A stretch of 64,000 nucleotides of DNA from a virus. The notes below the pieces were generated by a model. It had not been told where the DNA came from. It made no database searches and saw nothing but the letters and a program-made list of their open reading frames with translations. Of this stretch, positions 12,866 to 63,257 are shown one piece after another (position 1 is the first letter of the stretch; each line of letters opens with the position of its first letter). The position numbers were made by a program, and so were the translations under genes. The stretch is taken from positions 18,400 through 82,399 of the IMG/VR virus record IMGVR_UViG_3300021479_000013, one strand, 5' to 3'.

Positions 12866-13417
12866 TTAAAGCTGCTGCCCGCCGTCGAAAAGTATGTCGT
12901 AGAATCTTTCTAGGAACAATTGCTTGTTCACCCGGAAGGATGTCTCCACGATATTTACGTCGGCTGCTAGCTTGTCCTTGCTCCACGAATTCTTCCACTC
13001 GGTCGTCGGCATGATCTGCGCTTTCTCAGCGTAAAGCATTTGATTGTCGATCTCGTGGATTATCTCCGGGTCCTTCTCGTCCAACCCGAATCTGTTATAA
13101 ATCATCCCTTGAATTGGGGCCTCGATCTTTCGGTACTCGACGCCTGCGGGGGTGAAGTGTTTCAAAGGCCTATTTACATCTCCTATGTATGTTTCGCTCG
13201 CGTCATGAAGGAGGAATCGGAGAGCGTACCACTTCGGCACGAGGTAGCTGCCGAGTCGGCTGTGCTGCGATACCGGGTACGGAAAGCGGCAGTGGCCTGT
13301 AAACCTGTTGCACTGGCTAGACGAGTGCGCGATATCCTCGATGCACACCATCTCCGGAGTCGGCTCCAGTATGTCGAAGTACAATCCGGTCGAGGTGACT
13401 ATCGTCGCTTGGCTCAA
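12866..13417 (-). CDS. HD-domain phosphohydrolase (YfbR-like nucleotidase)
   Basis: 183 aa, TTG start with GAGGACGG upstream. Histidines in S-Q-H-S-R-L-G near 51, the H-D pair in F-L-L-H-D-A-S near 70, and a distal Asp in G-D-V-N-R-P-L near 78 form a metal site; E-I-D-N-Q-M-L-Y-A-E follows near 124. This order fits HD-type dNMP 5'-nucleotidases such as YfbR, which feed dNTP synthesis. The first 73 residues are nearly identical to those of the gene at 13643-14236. Confidence 0.8.
   Translation of the reverse strand: MSQATIVTSTGLYFDILEPTPEMVCIEDIAHSSSQCNRFTGHCRFPYPVSQHSRLGSYLVPKWYALRFLLHDASETYIGDVNRPLKHFTPAGVEYRKIEAPIQGMIYNRFGLDEKDPEIIHEIDNQMLYAEKAQIMPTTEWKNSWSKDKLAADVNIVETSFRVNKQLFLERFYDILFDGGQQL
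13201..13417 (-). repeat. 217-bp direct repeat, copy A (HD-gene 5' end)
   Basis: Matches 14020-14236 in the same orientation with about 12 mismatches; the 110 or so bases next to the start codons are identical. It covers the start codon and the first 72 codons of the HD-domain gene. Confidence 0.95.
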
Positions 13418-13642: not shown

Positions 13643-14236
13643 TTAATTCTCTGAGTTTAACTTCCCTGCGTACTCCAAACTTACCAGGTCCCAGTAAAGA
13701 GATAGCGTTTTAATTTTCAATTGCTCCAAAGTTCCATTGTTGTCGATAACGTAGTTCGCCATCTCTTTCGTTACAGAGCATGACGTTGAAGGCTCCGGTG
13801 ATACGTGCTTGCTGCGGTCGACCCATATGCTGTAGTCGAATAGGCGCTCGTCGCGCACTGCGTTTAGTTCCACCTCGCTGCGCATGCCGACGTAGATGTC
13901 GTTATCCGCGTAAATCTCCCTGGCGAGCCGAGCCGCGTCCGGCGTATTGAAGGCCTTGATCTGCTCGTACCAGTCTTGACGGTGGTTAACACGGTCGGCG
14001 TAGCACTCGTCCAGGCTCGCGTCGTGCAGGAGGAAGCGGAGAGCGTACTTCATCGGCACGAGAAAGCTTCCGAGTCGGCTGTGCTGCGATACAGGGTACG
14101 GAAAGCGGCAGTGGCCCGTAAATCTGTTGCACTGGCTAGACGAGTGCGCGATATCCTCGATGCACACCATCTCCGGAGTCGGCTCCAGTATGTCGAAGTA
14201 CAATCCGGTCGAGGTGACTATCGTCGCTTGGCTCAC
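13643..14236 (-). CDS. chimeric protein: HD-domain N-terminus joined to a kinase-like C-terminus
   Basis: 197 aa, GTG start overlapping the kinase stop. Residues 1-73 repeat the HD protein (Tyr to Phe, and Lys-Trp to Met-Lys changes) and break off right after F-L-L-H-D-A-S. The rest (C-Y-A-D-R-V-N-H-R, D-I-Y-V-G-M-R-S, I-W-V-D-R-S, Y-V-I-D-N-N-G-T-L) matches a phage deoxynucleotide-kinase-like family as I recall it, with no P-loop. So the HD metal site lacks its distal Asp and the kinase lacks its ATP site: it is probably inactive in both roles, or has a new one. Confidence 0.75.
   Translation of the reverse strand: MSQATIVTSTGLYFDILEPTPEMVCIEDIAHSSSQCNRFTGHCRFPYPVSQHSRLGSFLVPMKYALRFLLHDASLDECYADRVNHRQDWYEQIKAFNTPDAARLAREIYADNDIYVGMRSEVELNAVRDERLFDYSIWVDRSKHVSPEPSTSCSVTKEMANYVIDNNGTLEQLKIKTLSLYWDLVSLEYAGKLNSEN
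14020..14236 (-). repeat. 217-bp direct repeat, copy B (chimera 5' end)
   Basis: Partner of 13201-13417. Copy B starts with GTG, copy A with TTG; the difference falls in the first base of the start codon, just outside the identical run. Confidence 0.95.
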
Positions 14237-16788: not shown

Positions 16789-17481
16789 TTACGGCTTCAA
16801 AAGTGTGCGACCGATAAACCCTACGACCACGCCCGCGCCAAACCATTTAAGCTTGCTCTTGCGGCACTCGTCCTTCGCTGCCTTCAGTACCTCGCCGTCT
16901 GTCTTGATTTGTCCCGCGAGTACGACCGCGTCTTGCTTAATGATTCCAGCCTGGTCCGCGATAGTTCCGGCCTGGTTCTTAATCACTCCAGCTTGCTGAA
17001 CAACCGTCTGCGAATCCGCGAGGCCTTGGTCCAATTTTGCAACGATCTCTTGCCCGAGCGGCAGAGGTACAATCAAATCCTGCGACGCGTCGAGGGTGAT
17101 AGCGCCTTGCTTGAATCCTGTCAGCGTCTCGATGCGGTGGCCCAGGTCAGGTGCTGGCAGAGCCTGGTCGTGGACGATCTGAACCTTAGTCTGTGATTGA
17201 ATCTGCGCGATGGACGCGAGGAATGTCGCGTTCTCTTTCTGGCGCTCGATCTCGTTTGCGGCATAAGCTGCTGCCAGCTGTGACGAGTGGTCTTTCTCGA
17301 CCGCGAGCGCTTGCTCAGCTGCCGTGGCCCGCGCCTCTTGGATAGACGCGACCTTTCCTTCGATCTCGTAGATACCGAAACCGAGAGCGCACGCCAGAGC
17401 TACGTAGAGCACGATATGATGTGCCGTCAAAAAGACAACCGCGTTAGACTCGAAAGATTTAATTTCACCTGGAACTGTCAT
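16789..17481 (-). CDS. membrane-anchored coiled-coil protein (spanin-like?)
   Basis: 230 aa. A transmembrane helix near residues 22-42 (V-L-Y-V-A-L-A-C-A-L-G-F-G-I-Y), a long helical middle with repeated Q-A-G-x-I units near 170-195 (V-I-K-N-Q-A-G-T-I-A-D-Q-A-G-I-I-K-Q), and a second hydrophobic stretch at the C-terminus. The layout is like an inner-membrane spanin or a rod that crosses the periplasm. It overlaps the HNH gene by 17 nt. No motif proves lysis. Confidence 0.6.
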   Translation of the reverse strand: MTVPGEIKSFESNAVVFLTAHHIVLYVALACALGFGIYEIEGKVASIQEARATAAEQALAVEKDHSSQLAAAYAANEIERQKENATFLASIAQIQSQTKVQIVHDQALPAPDLGHRIETLTGFKQGAITLDASQDLIVPLPLGQEIVAKLDQGLADSQTVVQQAGVIKNQAGTIADQAGIIKQDAVVLAGQIKTDGEVLKAAKDECRKSKLKWFGAGVVVGFIGRTLLKP

Positions 17482-17926
17482 TTTCCCTCGCTTCCTTCTT
17501 CAATCTCTTCCTGTGCGCCTTCGTTCCTGTCCTGCCTGGGTATCCGATGTGTGTGAAACCTAAGGCTAGCCAGGCTGGTGATAAATTCAAGTACTGCCCT
17601 ATTCTGCACACGAACTTCGCCACAGTCAGCGTTGTAACCTTGCCGAGCCCGTAACGCTTATACGCGTTCTCGATCTTCCCGAGTAACGGGTTGCAACGAC
17701 TGCACAGAAGGCCACGAATTTCTCCCGTGGTGTGGTCGTGGTCTACGGATAGCCGACGACCTTTCACAGGTTCTGGCTGACCGCACGCGTAACAAACGCC
17801 GTCTTGAAAAGCCCAGATAATGTCGTACATCTCGGGCGTCAGCTTGTAACAATCCATCAGCCGCTTGGCCCTAGCTTTCGCCTTTGTTTTATCTTCCACA
17901 AAGGCAATACCACGGGTGGCATCCAA
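17465..17926 (-). CDS. recombination endonuclease VII-type HNH nuclease
   Basis: 153 aa, TTG start. Classic site: C-Y-A-C-G near 45, V-D-H-D-H-T-T-G-E-I-R-G-L-L-C-S-R-C-N near 61-79. Endonuclease VII domains resolve branched DNA in T4; many copies in phages are free-standing homing nucleases. A C-terminal extension (L-N-L-S-P-A-W-L-A-L-G-F) and a basic tail follow. Its 3' end overlaps the membrane protein gene by 17 nt, as for an inserted mobile gene. Confidence 0.85.
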   Translation of the reverse strand: MDATRGIAFVEDKTKAKARAKRLMDCYKLTPEMYDIIWAFQDGVCYACGQPEPVKGRRLSVDHDHTTGEIRGLLCSRCNPLLGKIENAYKRYGLGKVTTLTVAKFVCRIGQYLNLSPAWLALGFTHIGYPGRTGTKAHRKRLKKEARENDSSR

Positions 17927-45156: not shown

Positions 45157-45552
45157 ATGACACAGGCAGAAAGCAACAAAAAGTACTACGATACCAACAG
45201 ATTGAAACTTCTAGAAGAGTTGAAAAAGAAAAGAGCAACCTTCAGCAAAAAGAAGTGGGCGCGCATAAAAGAATTGGGGCGCTTAGCAAATAGAAAAAGG
45301 CTCTATAATTTGAGTGAAGAGCAGTATCAAAAGAAGCTGTCTAATCAGGGAAACAAGTGTGCCATCTGCAGAATTAAGATGAGCAAACCAGGGGTTGACC
45401 ACAACCGAGCTTGTTGCAATAGGGAAGGAAGTTGTGGCAAATGTGTACGCGGCATTCTTTGCTCGAACTGCAATTCAATTCTAGGTTTTGCCAAAGACAG
45501 TATTAAAAATCTTCGTAATGCAATCGAATATCTCAAAGGATACAAACAATGA
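45157..45552 (+). CDS. HNH/EndoVII homing endonuclease, compact
   Basis: 131 aa. C-A-I-C-R-I near 68, V-D-H-N-R-A-C-C near 79, C-G-K-C-V-R-G-I-L-C-S-N-C-N near 91. An extra C-C/C-G-K-C insertion replaces the usual H-x-T-G turn. AT-rich, between capsid and the next head gene, overlapping the latter by 4 nt. Confidence 0.82.
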   Translation: MTQAESNKKYYDTNRLKLLEELKKKRATFSKKKWARIKELGRLANRKRLYNLSEEQYQKKLSNQGNKCAICRIKMSKPGVDHNRACCNREGSCGKCVRGILCSNCNSILGFAKDSIKNLRNAIEYLKGYKQ

Positions 45553-52256: not shown

Positions 52257-52943
52257 ATGGCAACCTTGGAACAGCTTCAATCAGAAATTCAAGCGCTCAC
52301 TCTGCGCATCAGCCAGTTTGAAAAAGAGCACGCGGAGCACCGCAGCGTTCACGTCTCCAGACGCGGAACGGAAGGTCCTCGCGGAGCAACAGGCACATCG
52401 GGACGCGACGGGCAAAATGGCACTAACGGAAAAGATGGGTTGCCTGGTAGGGACGGGGTTTCTAATATCCCTGGACCTGCGGGGCGAGACGGAAAGAACG
52501 GCGTGGACGGGCAATCAATTATTGGTCCGGCTGGAAAAGACGGGCGAAACGGGATTGATGGAAAGAATGGAGTATCTGGAAAGAACGGCATAGACGGCCA
52601 ATCAATCGTTGGACCGTCCGGAAAAGATGGAATCAACGGAGTCGACGGTAAAGATGGCGCGGCTGGAAAAGACGGCAAAGACGGGCAGTCAGTTGTCGGC
52701 TCAGCTGGAAAAGACGGGCGAAACGGCGTCGACGGTGTGAACGGCCATAACGGCGGTGATGGAAAATCAGTCACAGGTCCCCAAGGTATCCAAGGACCAG
52801 CCGGACCCGCAGGACAAAACGGGGCCGACTCAGTGGTTACTCAGTCCGACATCGCACACATGGAAGTACGTTTTAGGAATCTATGGAAGAGCGACATGCA
52901 AATCGCGCTAGGTACACACTTCCGAGAGAGCCACAAAAACTAA
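52257..52943 (+). CDS. collagen-like fibre protein
   Basis: 228 aa. Coiled coil 1-28, about 45 Gly-X-Y triplets between 40 and 180 (many G-K-D-G and G-R-D-G), then a helical tip. Phage collagen triplets form trimeric rods in fibres. Its stop overlaps the end of the VRR-NUC gene on the other strand. Confidence 0.85.
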   Translation: MATLEQLQSEIQALTLRISQFEKEHAEHRSVHVSRRGTEGPRGATGTSGRDGQNGTNGKDGLPGRDGVSNIPGPAGRDGKNGVDGQSIIGPAGKDGRNGIDGKNGVSGKNGIDGQSIVGPSGKDGINGVDGKDGAAGKDGKDGQSVVGSAGKDGRNGVDGVNGHNGGDGKSVTGPQGIQGPAGPAGQNGADSVVTQSDIAHMEVRFRNLWKSDMQIALGTHFRESHKN

Positions 52944-53389
52944 AGCCAAGAGAACTTGACTTCTACTCCCATTAATTTCATTTTCTCAGCAAAGAGGTAT
53001 TGCTCCTTTCTAATACCGTCTCCTGGTCCCTTGACTTCTTCAAGAACAAGTTCAAGATTTCCTTGCTCATTCTTTCTAATCAAAATCAAGTCAGGTGCCC
53101 CAGCACGGTAGTTTGGTATTACGGTCCAGCCCTCTCTTTCTCGAACAGCCATCTGTACGTCGGCGGCGTTTTTAATAATGCTTTTTACAGGCGCTTCAAA
53201 TTCGCCTGACCGAATATTTTTAAGCTGATTCAATTCGTCTTCGGTGATTGAGTAGAATAGTTTGGTTACGTTTCCGATTGTGAGCATCCGCCTCTTTGGC
53301 ACGATTCCTCGCAGTCGAATGTTTCGAGCCGCGTGGTGGGCCTTGTACCCAACGGCTAATGCTGCCTCTCTTACTGGTATAAATTTCAT
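52940..53389 (-). CDS. VRR-NUC-like nuclease on the opposite strand
   Basis: 149 aa. N-terminal HTH-like part (V-R-E-A-A-L-A-V-G-Y, R-N-I-R-L-R-G). C-terminal A-P-D-L-I-L-I, E-E-V-K-G-P-G-D and a following Q match the VRR-NUC/PD-(D/E)XK site (D, E-x-K, Q). Its own promoter, AT-rich DNA and reversed direction inside the tail block mark an inserted unit, possibly a homing nuclease. Confidence 0.8.
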   Translation of the reverse strand: MKFIPVREAALAVGYKAHHAARNIRLRGIVPKRRMLTIGNVTKLFYSITEDELNQLKNIRSGEFEAPVKSIIKNAADVQMAVREREGWTVIPNYRAGAPDLILIRKNEQGNLELVLEEVKGPGDGIRKEQYLFAEKMKLMGVEVKFSWL

Positions 53390-53409
53390 GGAAATCCTCC
53401 CAACTTAAG

Positions 53410-53438
53410 AGGATACCACATCCCGAGTTATTTGTCAA
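53410..53438 (-). promoter_or_regulatory. promoter of the VRR-NUC gene
   Basis: TTGACA (53438-53433), 17 nt, TATCCT (53415-53410), extended by TGTGG. Only 12 nt before the ATG of the tail gene on the other strand. Confidence 0.85.
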
Positions 53439-53450
53439 GGACTATTTTTC

Positions 53451-55028
53451 ATGGCATTCGGATACTTCACAAGTCTTTCGAGCGTCCCGCTTCAGCAGAT
53501 TGTCGACATTGCCGAGACCTACGGTAACCTCGAACCTGTTTTGAACGTGGGCGGTTTCACACAAACGATTGCGCTCTCTATCGCCAACACGGTGATGAAC
53601 GCGATCTGTTCGGTGGCGTTCCCACACAAGTGGAACGAGTTCAACATCCCGCCGATTTATTCTAACAGCAACCAGCAAGACTACGCGGTCGTTAACGCTC
53701 CCGGGGCAACCGGCAACTTGACACTGACTGCGGTCAACCAAGTCTCGGCCTCCCAAGGCACCACGTCATACGTGGGCAATATGCCCGACGGCGCGTTCGG
53801 CGGATACGTCGGCGTGCCCTTCGTAATCACCGGCTTCACTAACGCGGGCAACAACGGAACATTTATGTGCGTCGCGTCTTCTGCGGCGACTCTCGTCCTA
53901 CAGAACTCTGGCGGCGTACTAGAGACTCACGCTGCAAACGCGATCTCGGCAGCTGGCCCGCTTCTCAATATGTCGTGGCTGGAACGCGGCGTCGCGTTCG
54001 ACATCAACAACTCTGCAATTCCGAAACCGTTCGTCCGCATCGAGTGCGGGCGTCAACTTCCCCAAGTCACCGCGTCTTACACGGGCGCGGCAGGACTTGG
54101 CGACCCAGGATTTTATGCGTGCTGGTTTCCTAACCGCACGTTGTATTATGGAACGTGGGGACAGCCCAACGTCGGTACAGCAACTCTCGGCGGCAACCCA
54201 GGACCGCTTTCTGTTTACCTAGCGCCTCTCGGTTCTTCGGTGACTGCGGCGTCGTGGACACTCGGTCAAGCGACGTTCACTCTGACCAGCCTTCTGCCGA
54301 CCGTTACCGTCGGAAATACTCTCAACATCACGGGCGCGTTTCCCGCAGCGTATAACGGCAACTGGACTATCGTCAGCATCAACACCACCGTTTTATCTGC
54401 ACCGACCGTAACCGTCACGATGGCCGTTAATCCCGGAACGTTCGCGGCAGGCGGCGACGTGGATAACTCAAACGCCACAAGCCAGCCGAACAATCCTATC
54501 ACCCAGATTGTCGACGCAAACGGCAACTTTCTATTACTCACCACGTACGGCACCGAGGGCATCACGCCTCCCACAGCCGTACGCAACGCGGTCCCTGGCG
54601 TACTAGTGTCTGGCAGCGGCGCAACATCGCAGTGGACCGTGCTAGACCCGAACGGCTGGGGCTTCCGATTCACGCCCGTGCCGACTTCGACAGGAACAGA
54701 GTGGCAGTTTAACCTGACAGCGCAGATGAAGCCTGTACGATTCGTCAGCCTGGCGCAGACACTCGGCCCGCTGCCCGATGAGTTCGAGACATTCTTCCGC
54801 GAAGGCTTTATCGCGCAGTGCTACCGCCGCTCACCAGAAAAGACCGTCTACGCAAAGTTCCCAGCGGAGTGGGCGATCTGGAAGCAGACCCTTACAGAAC
54901 TGCGTGTGAAAGAAGATCGTGAACTAGAAGAGAATAAGTTCATCCCGTCGCGCACCGTATTCGGCGCAGCACGCAGCAGAAACAACTTCCAGGGTGCCGC
55001 CTGGCCATATAATTACCCTCGCCCTTAA
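53451..55028 (+). CDS. tail protein with inserted NAGNNG beta domains
   Basis: 525 aa. N-terminal conserved helical part, two inserted beta domains (about 85-160 and 265-345) and a C-terminal part with R-S-P-E-K-T-V-Y-A-K-F-P. First big gene after the VRR-NUC insert. Likely a tail adaptor, by place and size. Confidence 0.65.
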   Translation: MAFGYFTSLSSVPLQQIVDIAETYGNLEPVLNVGGFTQTIALSIANTVMNAICSVAFPHKWNEFNIPPIYSNSNQQDYAVVNAPGATGNLTLTAVNQVSASQGTTSYVGNMPDGAFGGYVGVPFVITGFTNAGNNGTFMCVASSAATLVLQNSGGVLETHAANAISAAGPLLNMSWLERGVAFDINNSAIPKPFVRIECGRQLPQVTASYTGAAGLGDPGFYACWFPNRTLYYGTWGQPNVGTATLGGNPGPLSVYLAPLGSSVTAASWTLGQATFTLTSLLPTVTVGNTLNITGAFPAAYNGNWTIVSINTTVLSAPTVTVTMAVNPGTFAAGGDVDNSNATSQPNNPITQIVDANGNFLLLTTYGTEGITPPTAVRNAVPGVLVSGSGATSQWTVLDPNGWGFRFTPVPTSTGTEWQFNLTAQMKPVRFVSLAQTLGPLPDEFETFFREGFIAQCYRRSPEKTVYAKFPAEWAIWKQTLTELRVKEDRELEENKFIPSRTVFGAARSRNNFQGAAWPYNYPRP

Positions 55029-62056: not shown

Positions 62057-62515
62057 ATGCTCACTCCTTCAACCGAACAAGACTTGGAACAGCTCAACGA
62101 GTGGATACTCCACGACCCGTATCACTTCCACCAGGGGCAACCCGAGTGGTGGCTTACGGGGAACGATAACCTTCTCGCGTTCTGTTTGTCCGATGACACA
62201 GGGCCGCTTTGTTACGTCCGCCTTGATTCAGAAGACGGATACGTTCGCATCCACACCCAGTTCGCTCCCGAGTCAGTCGTCTCGAAGAAGCGGCTCGTGG
62301 TCGGGATGATCGGGTGCATGAGTAAGCTGATCGAGTTTTACAAAGAGAGCGCGAAGGGAATGATCTTCAATTCCGTCAGCCCCAGCCTTGTTGCCTTTAT
62401 GGACACACGGTTTGGTTTTAAGGCTTGCGGAAATGATGATTACGTGATACAGTTTGAAGCAGGAGAACTACGTTCAAATGATAGGACATCTGTATCGCTA
62501 TCCGCATCCGAATGA
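62057..62515 (+). CDS. GNAT acetyltransferase-like protein
   Basis: 152 aa. Beta-bulge and G-M-I-G-C-M-S-K near 94, F-M-D-T-R-F-G-F near 115, the order of a small GNAT fold. The C-terminal 15 residues overlap the GIY-YIG gene and may be changed by its insertion. May act on the tail region as in other phages. Confidence 0.6.
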   Translation: MLTPSTEQDLEQLNEWILHDPYHFHQGQPEWWLTGNDNLLAFCLSDDTGPLCYVRLDSEDGYVRIHTQFAPESVVSKKRLVVGMIGCMSKLIEFYKESAKGMIFNSVSPSLVAFMDTRFGFKACGNDDYVIQFEAGELRSNDRTSVSLSASE

Positions 62516-63257
62516 CCTGACAAAATTCATTTACGTTGGGCAGGGACTAAAAAGAGACAGATCACATAGAATTGGTCAAGGCTCGTTCGGTAGAAGATTC
62601 AGAGATAAGTTTCCTGGCGTCGAACTCCCGCAGCCCGTTAGAGAGATCGTTGAAGTTGAAAATAGGCTCGAATTAAACGGGCTTGAAACTATTCACATGT
62701 TTCAATATCGCACCTGGCACGGATACGAAGGTGGTATGAACTACTCCCTTCCTGGCTCGATAGATTACGGAAATTTCTCAACCGCTCATAGAGAATCTCT
62801 TCGAGCGAGAATGAAGAAGCAGAGGAAAGACCCAATATTCGAAGCCAAACTTAAGGCTAGCTATAATGAGCCCAGTGTTCGGGCTAATAGGTCAAAAATA
62901 ACCAAGAAAAGGTTCCTAGATAACCCTGCTTACAAAGCCAAGTGGATAGCAGCTATAAGAGCAGGAGCAGAAAAACCTGAAAGTAAAAAAGCTGTCATCG
63001 ATGCTCTTCGAAGACGAAACGCTATTATGAATCACACCCCAGAACACTCAGAACGGGGTAAGGTAGCTATGTCAAAGCTACGAGAAAAGCCAGAATTTTT
63101 AAAGTGGGTAGAATCCCACGCTCCAAAACTTACGCATATTCGTTGGCACGAGAATCGCGGAATCACAAAACCAAGTTGTAGATTCTGCATACCGAGGAAG
63201 CATGAAGATTATCACAAAAGCAGTCCTAGACATGGAGACAATGCTGTGGGTCTCTGA
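62478..63257 (+). CDS. GIY-YIG homing endonuclease with NUMOD-type repeats
   Basis: 259 aa from ATG 62478. G-H-L-Y-R-Y and I-Y-V-G-Q-G-L near 16 are the GIY-YIG core, followed by R-R-F-R-D-K-F and later H-R-E-S-L-R-A-R-M-K-K-Q repeats that bind DNA. AT-rich, ends overlap both neighbours (38 and 56 nt). Confidence 0.8.
   Translation: MIGHLYRYPHPNDLTKFIYVGQGLKRDRSHRIGQGSFGRRFRDKFPGVELPQPVREIVEVENRLELNGLETIHMFQYRTWHGYEGGMNYSLPGSIDYGNFSTAHRESLRARMKKQRKDPIFEAKLKASYNEPSVRANRSKITKKRFLDNPAYKAKWIAAIRAGAEKPESKKAVIDALRRRNAIMNHTPEHSERGKVAMSKLREKPEFLKWVESHAPKLTHIRWHENRGITKPSCRFCIPRKHEDYHKSSPRHGDNAVGL

Follow-up and report, generated by a model that had tools for sequence, protein, structure and literature searches.

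A candidate free-standing homing endonuclease gene of the VRR-Nuc type in the tail gene block of a phage

Results

An isolated minus-strand gene among tail genes

The stretch of DNA analysed here (the window, 64,000 nucleotides) comprises positions 18400-82399 of an 82.4-kb virus record. Early-type genes, mostly on the minus strand, fill its left 25 kb. On the plus strand, terminase, portal and head genes are found at 37.9-45 kb, and tail and decoration genes continue up to 63 kb. Among the latter lies a minus-strand gene encoding a 149-aa protein with a VRR-Nuc domain (Table 1). It overlaps the collagen-like gene on its left by 3 nt at the two stop codons, and its start is 61 nt away from that of a conserved 525-aa tail gene on its right. 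Its GC content is 44.5% (GC3 43.6%) against 52.8% for the window, in agreement with an earlier note on this DNA that had described an AT-rich minus-strand gene within a plus-strand tail block. By itself the low GC content is not decisive, because AT-richness is common to most, though not all, nuclease-type genes of this phage group. The value resembles that of cassettes in related phages (43-48%), which counts in favour of homing. We looked for transposon ends at the cassette and found neither terminal inverted repeats nor flanking duplications. A search with Rfam found no intron within the window, and the gene stands directly before the 525-aa gene with no splicing element.

Table 1. Positions in the window of the VRR-Nuc gene, its parts and signals, its neighbours and two other nuclease-type genes.
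Feature	Position	Strand	Basis or remark
VRR-Nuc gene, 149 aa	52940..53389	minus	ATG at 53389, stop 52942-52940
Predicted winged-helix/MerR-like DNA-binding domain, residues 1-59	53213..53389	minus	model, weak Foldseek match
C-terminal VRR-Nuc / PD-(D/E)XK core, residues 75-149	52943..53167	minus	Pfam, L051 alignment, model, Foldseek
Promoter TTGACA, 17-nt spacer ending TGG, TATCCT, extended -10	53410..53438	minus	consensus
Shine-Dalgarno GGGAGGA, 5 nt before the VRR-Nuc ATG	53395..53401	minus	sequence
Terminator-like hairpin with T-rich tail, 3' end of the VRR-Nuc gene, overlapping its stop	52942..52963	minus	
AAGGA, complement of the promoter's -35 flank, 9 nt before the ATG of the 525-aa gene	53437..53441	plus	sequence
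Left neighbour, collagen-like tail/decoration gene, variable module	52257..52943	plus	
Right neighbour, conserved 525-aa tail/structural gene	53451..55028	plus	probe for relatives
Endo VII-type nuclease gene directly after the major head gene	45157..45552	plus	GC 39.9%
GIY-YIG-like gene, second homing-like gene	62480..63257	plus	motif reading

A predicted DNA-binding domain joined to a VRR-Nuc core

Pfam VRR_NUC (PF08774) matched residues 88-144 of the protein with 27.5 bits, above the curated cut-off of 23.8 (E 3.5e-6). The published VRR-Nuc motif consists of E-PD-ExK and a conserved Gln (PMC4103454). Residues P99 D100, E118 x K120 and Q130 are present, with the first Glu not clearly placed, and are kept in a relative from another phage (L051). 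This relative is 34% identical across both domains, matches Pfam VRR_NUC with 37.8 bits and is encoded next to a collagen-like gene. A tRNA-like sequence, recognised by eye, lies immediately 3' of it (L051 2175-2260).

A structure model built on these two sequences had a mean pLDDT of 72 and a pTM of 0.56. The modelled N-terminus (pLDDT 76-86) is winged-helix-like, with elements H6-13, H17-26, E32-38, E41-49 and H50-59, and gave a weak local Foldseek match to the MerR-like RacA in complex with DNA (5i44; prob 0.89, E 0.38). In the C-terminal core, the order alpha-beta-beta-beta-alpha-beta fits PD-(D/E)XK, at a pLDDT of only 62-80. Foldseek matched this core in the PDB to FAN1 and to VRR-Nuc entries 4qbo and 4qbn with weak E-values (0.06-0.1 for FAN1 and 4qbo), and phage VRR-Nuc proteins in BFVD matched the model with a best E of 3e-4. 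A two-sequence profile compared with the PDB gave FAN1 at E 0.06. The protein is predicted to combine a nuclease domain with a DNA-binding domain, in line with the earlier note's proposal of an HTH-like part fused to a VRR-NUC core.

Like stNUC, psNUC and saNUC (PMC4103454; 4qbo, 4qbn), the window protein has a predicted VRR-Nuc core with PD...ExK and Gln; unlike these single-domain proteins, it has an added N-terminal domain and is the product of a sporadic, isolated gene. FAN1 is the nearest solved sequence relative of the core (EVKGP.D...Q), but it is a large multidomain repair enzyme and the likeness is limited to about 55 residues. Searching viral and genome contigs with peptide patterns confirmed no close relative of the window protein, and tblastn with the protein gave nothing in phages and one chance-level match in plasmids. 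A DNA pattern for EVKGPGD returned 24 loci, among which L051 was the sole clear relative; weak VRR-like matches (L052, L055, L046 and L049) were left out. A profile of the N-terminal domain found no further proteins across the fetched loci.

The gene carries its own expression signals

The promoter in front of the VRR-Nuc gene scores 10 of 12 consensus matches (TTGACA-N17-TATCCT) and has in addition an extended -10, with TG one base before the -10 element, so that the earlier note's consensus promoter stands. Six other extended -10 sites of this promoter type were found in the window (4878-, 6003-, 16780-, 25480-, 26847+ and 30198+), most of them preceding early-block genes. Exact AGTsCTTGACA sites in relatives also stand before ordinary genes, for example an integrase-like gene. 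A private cassette signature was ruled out by this use of the same promoter type in front of ordinary phage genes. This promoter type belongs to the phage group itself and is therefore no mark of foreign origin for the VRR-Nuc gene. Its type suggests early-type expression inside a late operon. The terminator-like hairpin at the 3' end of the gene has a predicted energy of -10.9 kcal/mol (z -2.35). A hairpin masking the Shine-Dalgarno sequence, as in T4 I-TevI, was also considered and rejected as not significant (z -0.75).

The flank of the -35 element reads AAGGA on the plus strand, where it may act as the Shine-Dalgarno sequence of the 525-aa tail gene; at this position the relatives carry an AAGG or GGAG of their own. 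The overlap is a possible retention device for the cassette. It would also suit a degraded or inactive passenger, once a homing or repair nuclease, that is kept since its promoter region gives the tail gene its ribosome-binding site, and in T4 embedded control signals do favour the retention of homing genes (PMC2988022). Against a passenger, the frame is intact and the consensus promoter, the Shine-Dalgarno sequence and PD...ExK...Q are all in place, and we regard this explanation as highly improbable.

The gene is missing from all comparison phages

To define relatives, the 525-aa tail gene was used as a probe. Fourteen IMG/VR loci match it (L015, with a short repeat only, was not counted), and its sole annotated relative is Tunturiibacter phage Tunturi 3, a podovirus of Acidobacteriota. 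The comparison set had 15 records: L002-L014, L022, which was added through a 311-aa gene, and L016 (Tunturi 3). Neither the VRR-Nuc protein nor the VRR_NUC profile found a match in any of the 15. The earlier note had named a comparison of empty sites as the check on its idea, to be refuted if relatives all kept the gene at this place with phage-like composition; what we found instead is its absence throughout the set. Presence in some phages with absence from the same site in relatives is a criterion for free-standing homing genes, and the VRR-Nuc gene has such a distribution in these comparisons. A near-identical empty-site phage for the window was sought and none was found, the relatives being about 65-75% identical in flanking DNA.

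We distinguished three sites: the gap before the 525-aa gene (site 1), the gap between the 525- and 311-aa genes (site 2), and the position after the 311-aa gene (site 3). Occupancy was read from ORF lists and gene boundaries, and for L016 from the annotation. Sites 1 and 2 are both empty in ten of the 15 records (L002, L005, L006, L009, L010, L012, L013, L014, L022 and L016). A 1241-aa gene begins directly at site 3 in seven of these (L002, L006, L010, L012, L013, L014 and L022), no ORF of at least 100 aa was found there in L005 and L009, and the downstream gene order differs in Tunturi 3. The other five records have insertions, at site 1 in L011, at site 2 in L003 and L008, and at site 3 in L007 and L004. 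Site 1 is empty in L003, L004, L007 and L008, although in L008 most of the module to its left is missing. The gene upstream of site 1 differs among relatives (collagen-like, SGNH-like or PKD-like), and site 1 is therefore the edge of a variable decoration module.

An unrelated gene occupies the same gap in a relative

Exactly in the VRR-Nuc gap, L011 has a different minus-strand gene of 196 aa. Its promoter (AAAATAGTGCTTGACA...TGAGATGAT, of the AAAATAGTsCTTGACA type) and leader (GGAGGATTT) are very like those of the window gene. The C-terminal half of its product aligns with a phage protein in L069 over FPD...(I/V)EFEF...CDxIVCW, a shared pattern that by motif reading would be PD-(D/E)XK-like. 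A pattern search for the L011 protein gave L011 itself, L069 and L071, and the alignment was drawn from L069. None of the profile libraries recognised the L011 protein, and its model, made without an alignment, was too poor to use (pLDDT 31). The L069 relative of the L011 protein (1094-1786) carries in addition a fused winged helix of the response-regulator type (Trans_reg_C, E 1.7e-9). Two occupants at the same site could also mark a general cargo slot.

The absence of the VRR-Nuc gene from relatives and the second occupant both bear on whether the protein serves recombination. As an accessory VRR-Nuc Holliday-junction resolvase, it would trim intermediates of replication or packaging, and its N-terminal domain would raise the affinity for DNA. 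The characterised standalone VRR-Nuc proteins of phages are indeed dimers whose activity is four-way-junction resolution and not sequence-specific cutting (PMC4103454), which counts against a homing role, and PHROG 'Holliday junction resolvase' matches the window protein weakly (E 0.026). However, a gene lacking in 15 of 15 comparison phages is no conserved DNA-metabolism gene of the group, and a fused DNA-binding domain, antisense isolation and an own promoter are not expected of a core resolvase, nor is the presence in L011 of an unrelated gene where the window has the VRR-Nuc gene. Moreover, the early block already has an Endo VII gene (17465-17926) that is conserved in five relatives at 69-82% identity, so that the VRR protein is not needed as a resident resolvase. 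We consider such a resolvase improbable.

Nuclease genes in late blocks share the promoter type

Late blocks in the loci of 13 relatives were scanned for the TTGACA/TG-extended -10 promoter upstream of ORFs of at least 100 aa. The pattern was taken from the window's promoter after it had been seen, so the resulting tally is descriptive rather than blind, and it leaves out the Tunturi 3 site and shorter ORFs. Nine distinct ORFs stand behind this promoter type. One is a structural gene, found in L002 and L006, and the other eight encode nucleases or nuclease-like proteins: LAGLIDADG in L003 and L012, Endo VII in L005, L008 and L009, GIY-YIG-like in L003 and L007, and the product of the L011 gene.

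The insertions at site 2 are GIY-YIG-like genes, with the promoter in L003 and without it in L008, and another GIY-YIG-like gene occupies site 3 in L007. The second homing-like gene of the window (62480..63257) encodes a protein with 64% identity over 102 aa to that of the L007 site-3 gene, and hence the same kind of gene occurs at two different sites. The label GIY-YIG-like for the L003, L007, L008 and window 62480 proteins denotes a motif reading and mutual similarity; Pfam and PHROGs did not recognise GIY-YIG in these four. The major head gene has a LAGLIDADG gene within it or just after it in L003 and L012, and many relatives have Endo VII genes there; relatives of the Endo VII gene at this place in the window occupy the same place in several genomes. 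At least one Endo VII-type match was found in 14 of 17 records, with ten in G007, six in G010 (the records of L008 and L011, respectively), five in G004 and four in the window's record.

The late block also accepts non-nuclease cargo: in L004 (10513-11298), a glycosyltransferase-like gene of 261 aa occupies site 3, between the 311- and 1241-aa genes. This insertion into the tail block, and the position of the VRR-Nuc gene as an independent transcription unit within a late operon, which is the classical moron layout, would suit moron-type cargo in which an early nuclease protects the phage or lysogen from competing phages, satellites or plasmids with no homing involved; T-even phages are documented to exclude co-infecting relatives by means of nucleases (PMC2988022). 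On the other side, a PADLOC search gave no match at E 1, the cassette has no partner immunity or modification gene, and several nuclease families in neighbouring gaps suit homing better than a single defence role. We judge cargo of this type unlikely.

Several observations concern other parts of these genomes. A LAGLIDADG gene with its own promoter splits the major head gene after codon 94 in L003 (1714-2653) and L012 (813-1742). An intein was excluded there by stop codons at the junction, and the L003 insert matched an Rfam group I intron below the gathering score (25.7 bits, E 3.4e-4). Near codon 310, inserts of 180-245 bp break the major head gene in L007 (240-417), L008 (5477-5721) and L010 (3252-3460). 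These share a group-I-intron-like ACGACTAAG...GATAGTCTG and contain no ORF; Rfam found no match in those of L008 and L010. In the early block of the window, two minus-strand neighbours (12866-13417 and 13643-14236) have a near-identical N-terminal stretch of about 55 residues (MSQATIVTSTGLYFDILEPTPEMVC...), and the sequences identify them as a tandem duplication.

Signs of movement in a closely related pair

L008 and L011 are about 97-98% identical outside exchanged parts. A GIY-YIG-like gene stands between the 525- and 311-aa genes in L008 and is missing from L011. Over 1584 positions, the 525-aa genes of the two differ by 90 mismatches; the first 80 positions, adjoining the L011 insertion, contain ten of these and the last 80, adjoining the L008 insertion, contain 12. 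This excess at the ends relative to the middle gave Fisher p values of about 0.007 and 0.0007, respectively. The clusters are suggestive of flank conversion in a gene whose middle is itself uneven. The pair also differs in that L008 (7867-7956) is without about 5.7 kb of decoration genes present in L011 (2219-7956), between a GG-rich tail gene and the collagen-like gene's 3' end, which may reflect deletion, module loss or an assembly fault.

Discussion

We propose, with a probability of roughly 0.7, that the VRR-Nuc gene codes for a free-standing homing endonuclease, of the PD-(D/E)XK/VRR-Nuc type. As read from the sequences, this proposal is well supported by context: in relatives, this gap or those next to it are occupied by other nuclease families that have the same type of promoter. 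The gene would be transcribed from its own promoter, probably early, antisense to the late operon, and the transcript would be ended by the gene's own hairpin. The target of the N-terminal winged helix would be a long stretch of DNA in or close to the place where the collagen-like gene meets the 525-aa tail gene. Acting probably as a dimer, the VRR-Nuc domain would cut the genomes of co-infecting relatives with an empty site, and repair from the occupied genome would copy the cassette of about 500 bp together with some flank.

The earlier note had left open a homing nuclease or an anti-phage weapon. Our results favour the first, given the nuclease families in nearby gaps, and lend nothing to the second, for which PADLOC gave no match; the two are compatible, as in a mixed infection a homing enzyme can also serve as a weapon of interference. 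It had also spoken of a new kind of homing nuclease. What is new is the VRR-Nuc catalytic domain, whereas free-standing homing genes of phages are well known. That a winged helix joined to VRR-Nuc makes a new homing type, one that is free-standing, antisense, driven by an early-type promoter and placed at a site that an unrelated PD-(D/E)XK-like homing gene takes in a relative (L011), has in our estimation an even chance of being right. We found nothing linking VRR-Nuc to homing in the openly licensed literature at the level of titles and abstracts, and an earlier report elsewhere is possible.

The predicted PD-(D/E)XK active-site class of the window protein is one that I-Ssp6803I uses for homing. 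I-Ssp6803I is encoded in a bacterial tRNA-gene intron and lies outside the VRR-Nuc family, a description that sets it apart from the window protein. PD-(D/E)XK homing enzymes are a listed family, in which I-Ssp6803I is named (PMC3943268). A dozen free-standing homing genes lie between other genes in T4, segD among them, antisense and flanked by capsid genes (PMC2988022). The window gene resembles these seg and mob genes, and segD especially, in that they are intergenic, some of them antisense between structural genes, and able to alter the expression signals of their neighbours. It differs from them in having a VRR-Nuc domain instead of GIY-YIG or HNH domains and a sigma70-like early-type promoter instead of a middle or late one. 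Promoters of T4 homing genes are never early (PMC2988022), which counts against homing for a gene with an early-type promoter. Clustering of homing genes close to structural and tail genes is described for many phages in an account without mention of VRR (PMC10448857).

The closest parallel in design is F-CphI of cyanophage S-PM2, in which an Endo VII / DHHRN motif serves a homing endonuclease (PMC6083498). Both proteins join a resolvase-type catalytic domain to an added N-terminal region and are encoded by separate phage genes, and F-CphI is used for homing; F-CphI has the Endo VII fold, in contrast to the predicted PD-(D/E)XK fold of the window protein. If our proposal is true, VRR-Nuc would be the second Holliday-junction-resolvase fold turned homing enzyme, after Endo VII in F-CphI, and more catalytic types would be known to move as free-standing genes. 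This group of Acidobacteriota phages appears rich in such genes (Endo VII-type, LAGLIDADG and GIY-YIG-like), and its occupied and empty sites, side by side, would offer a natural system for studying unrelated nucleases that share insertion sites and promoters. It would also mean that phage VRR-Nuc genes should not be labelled resolvases by default.
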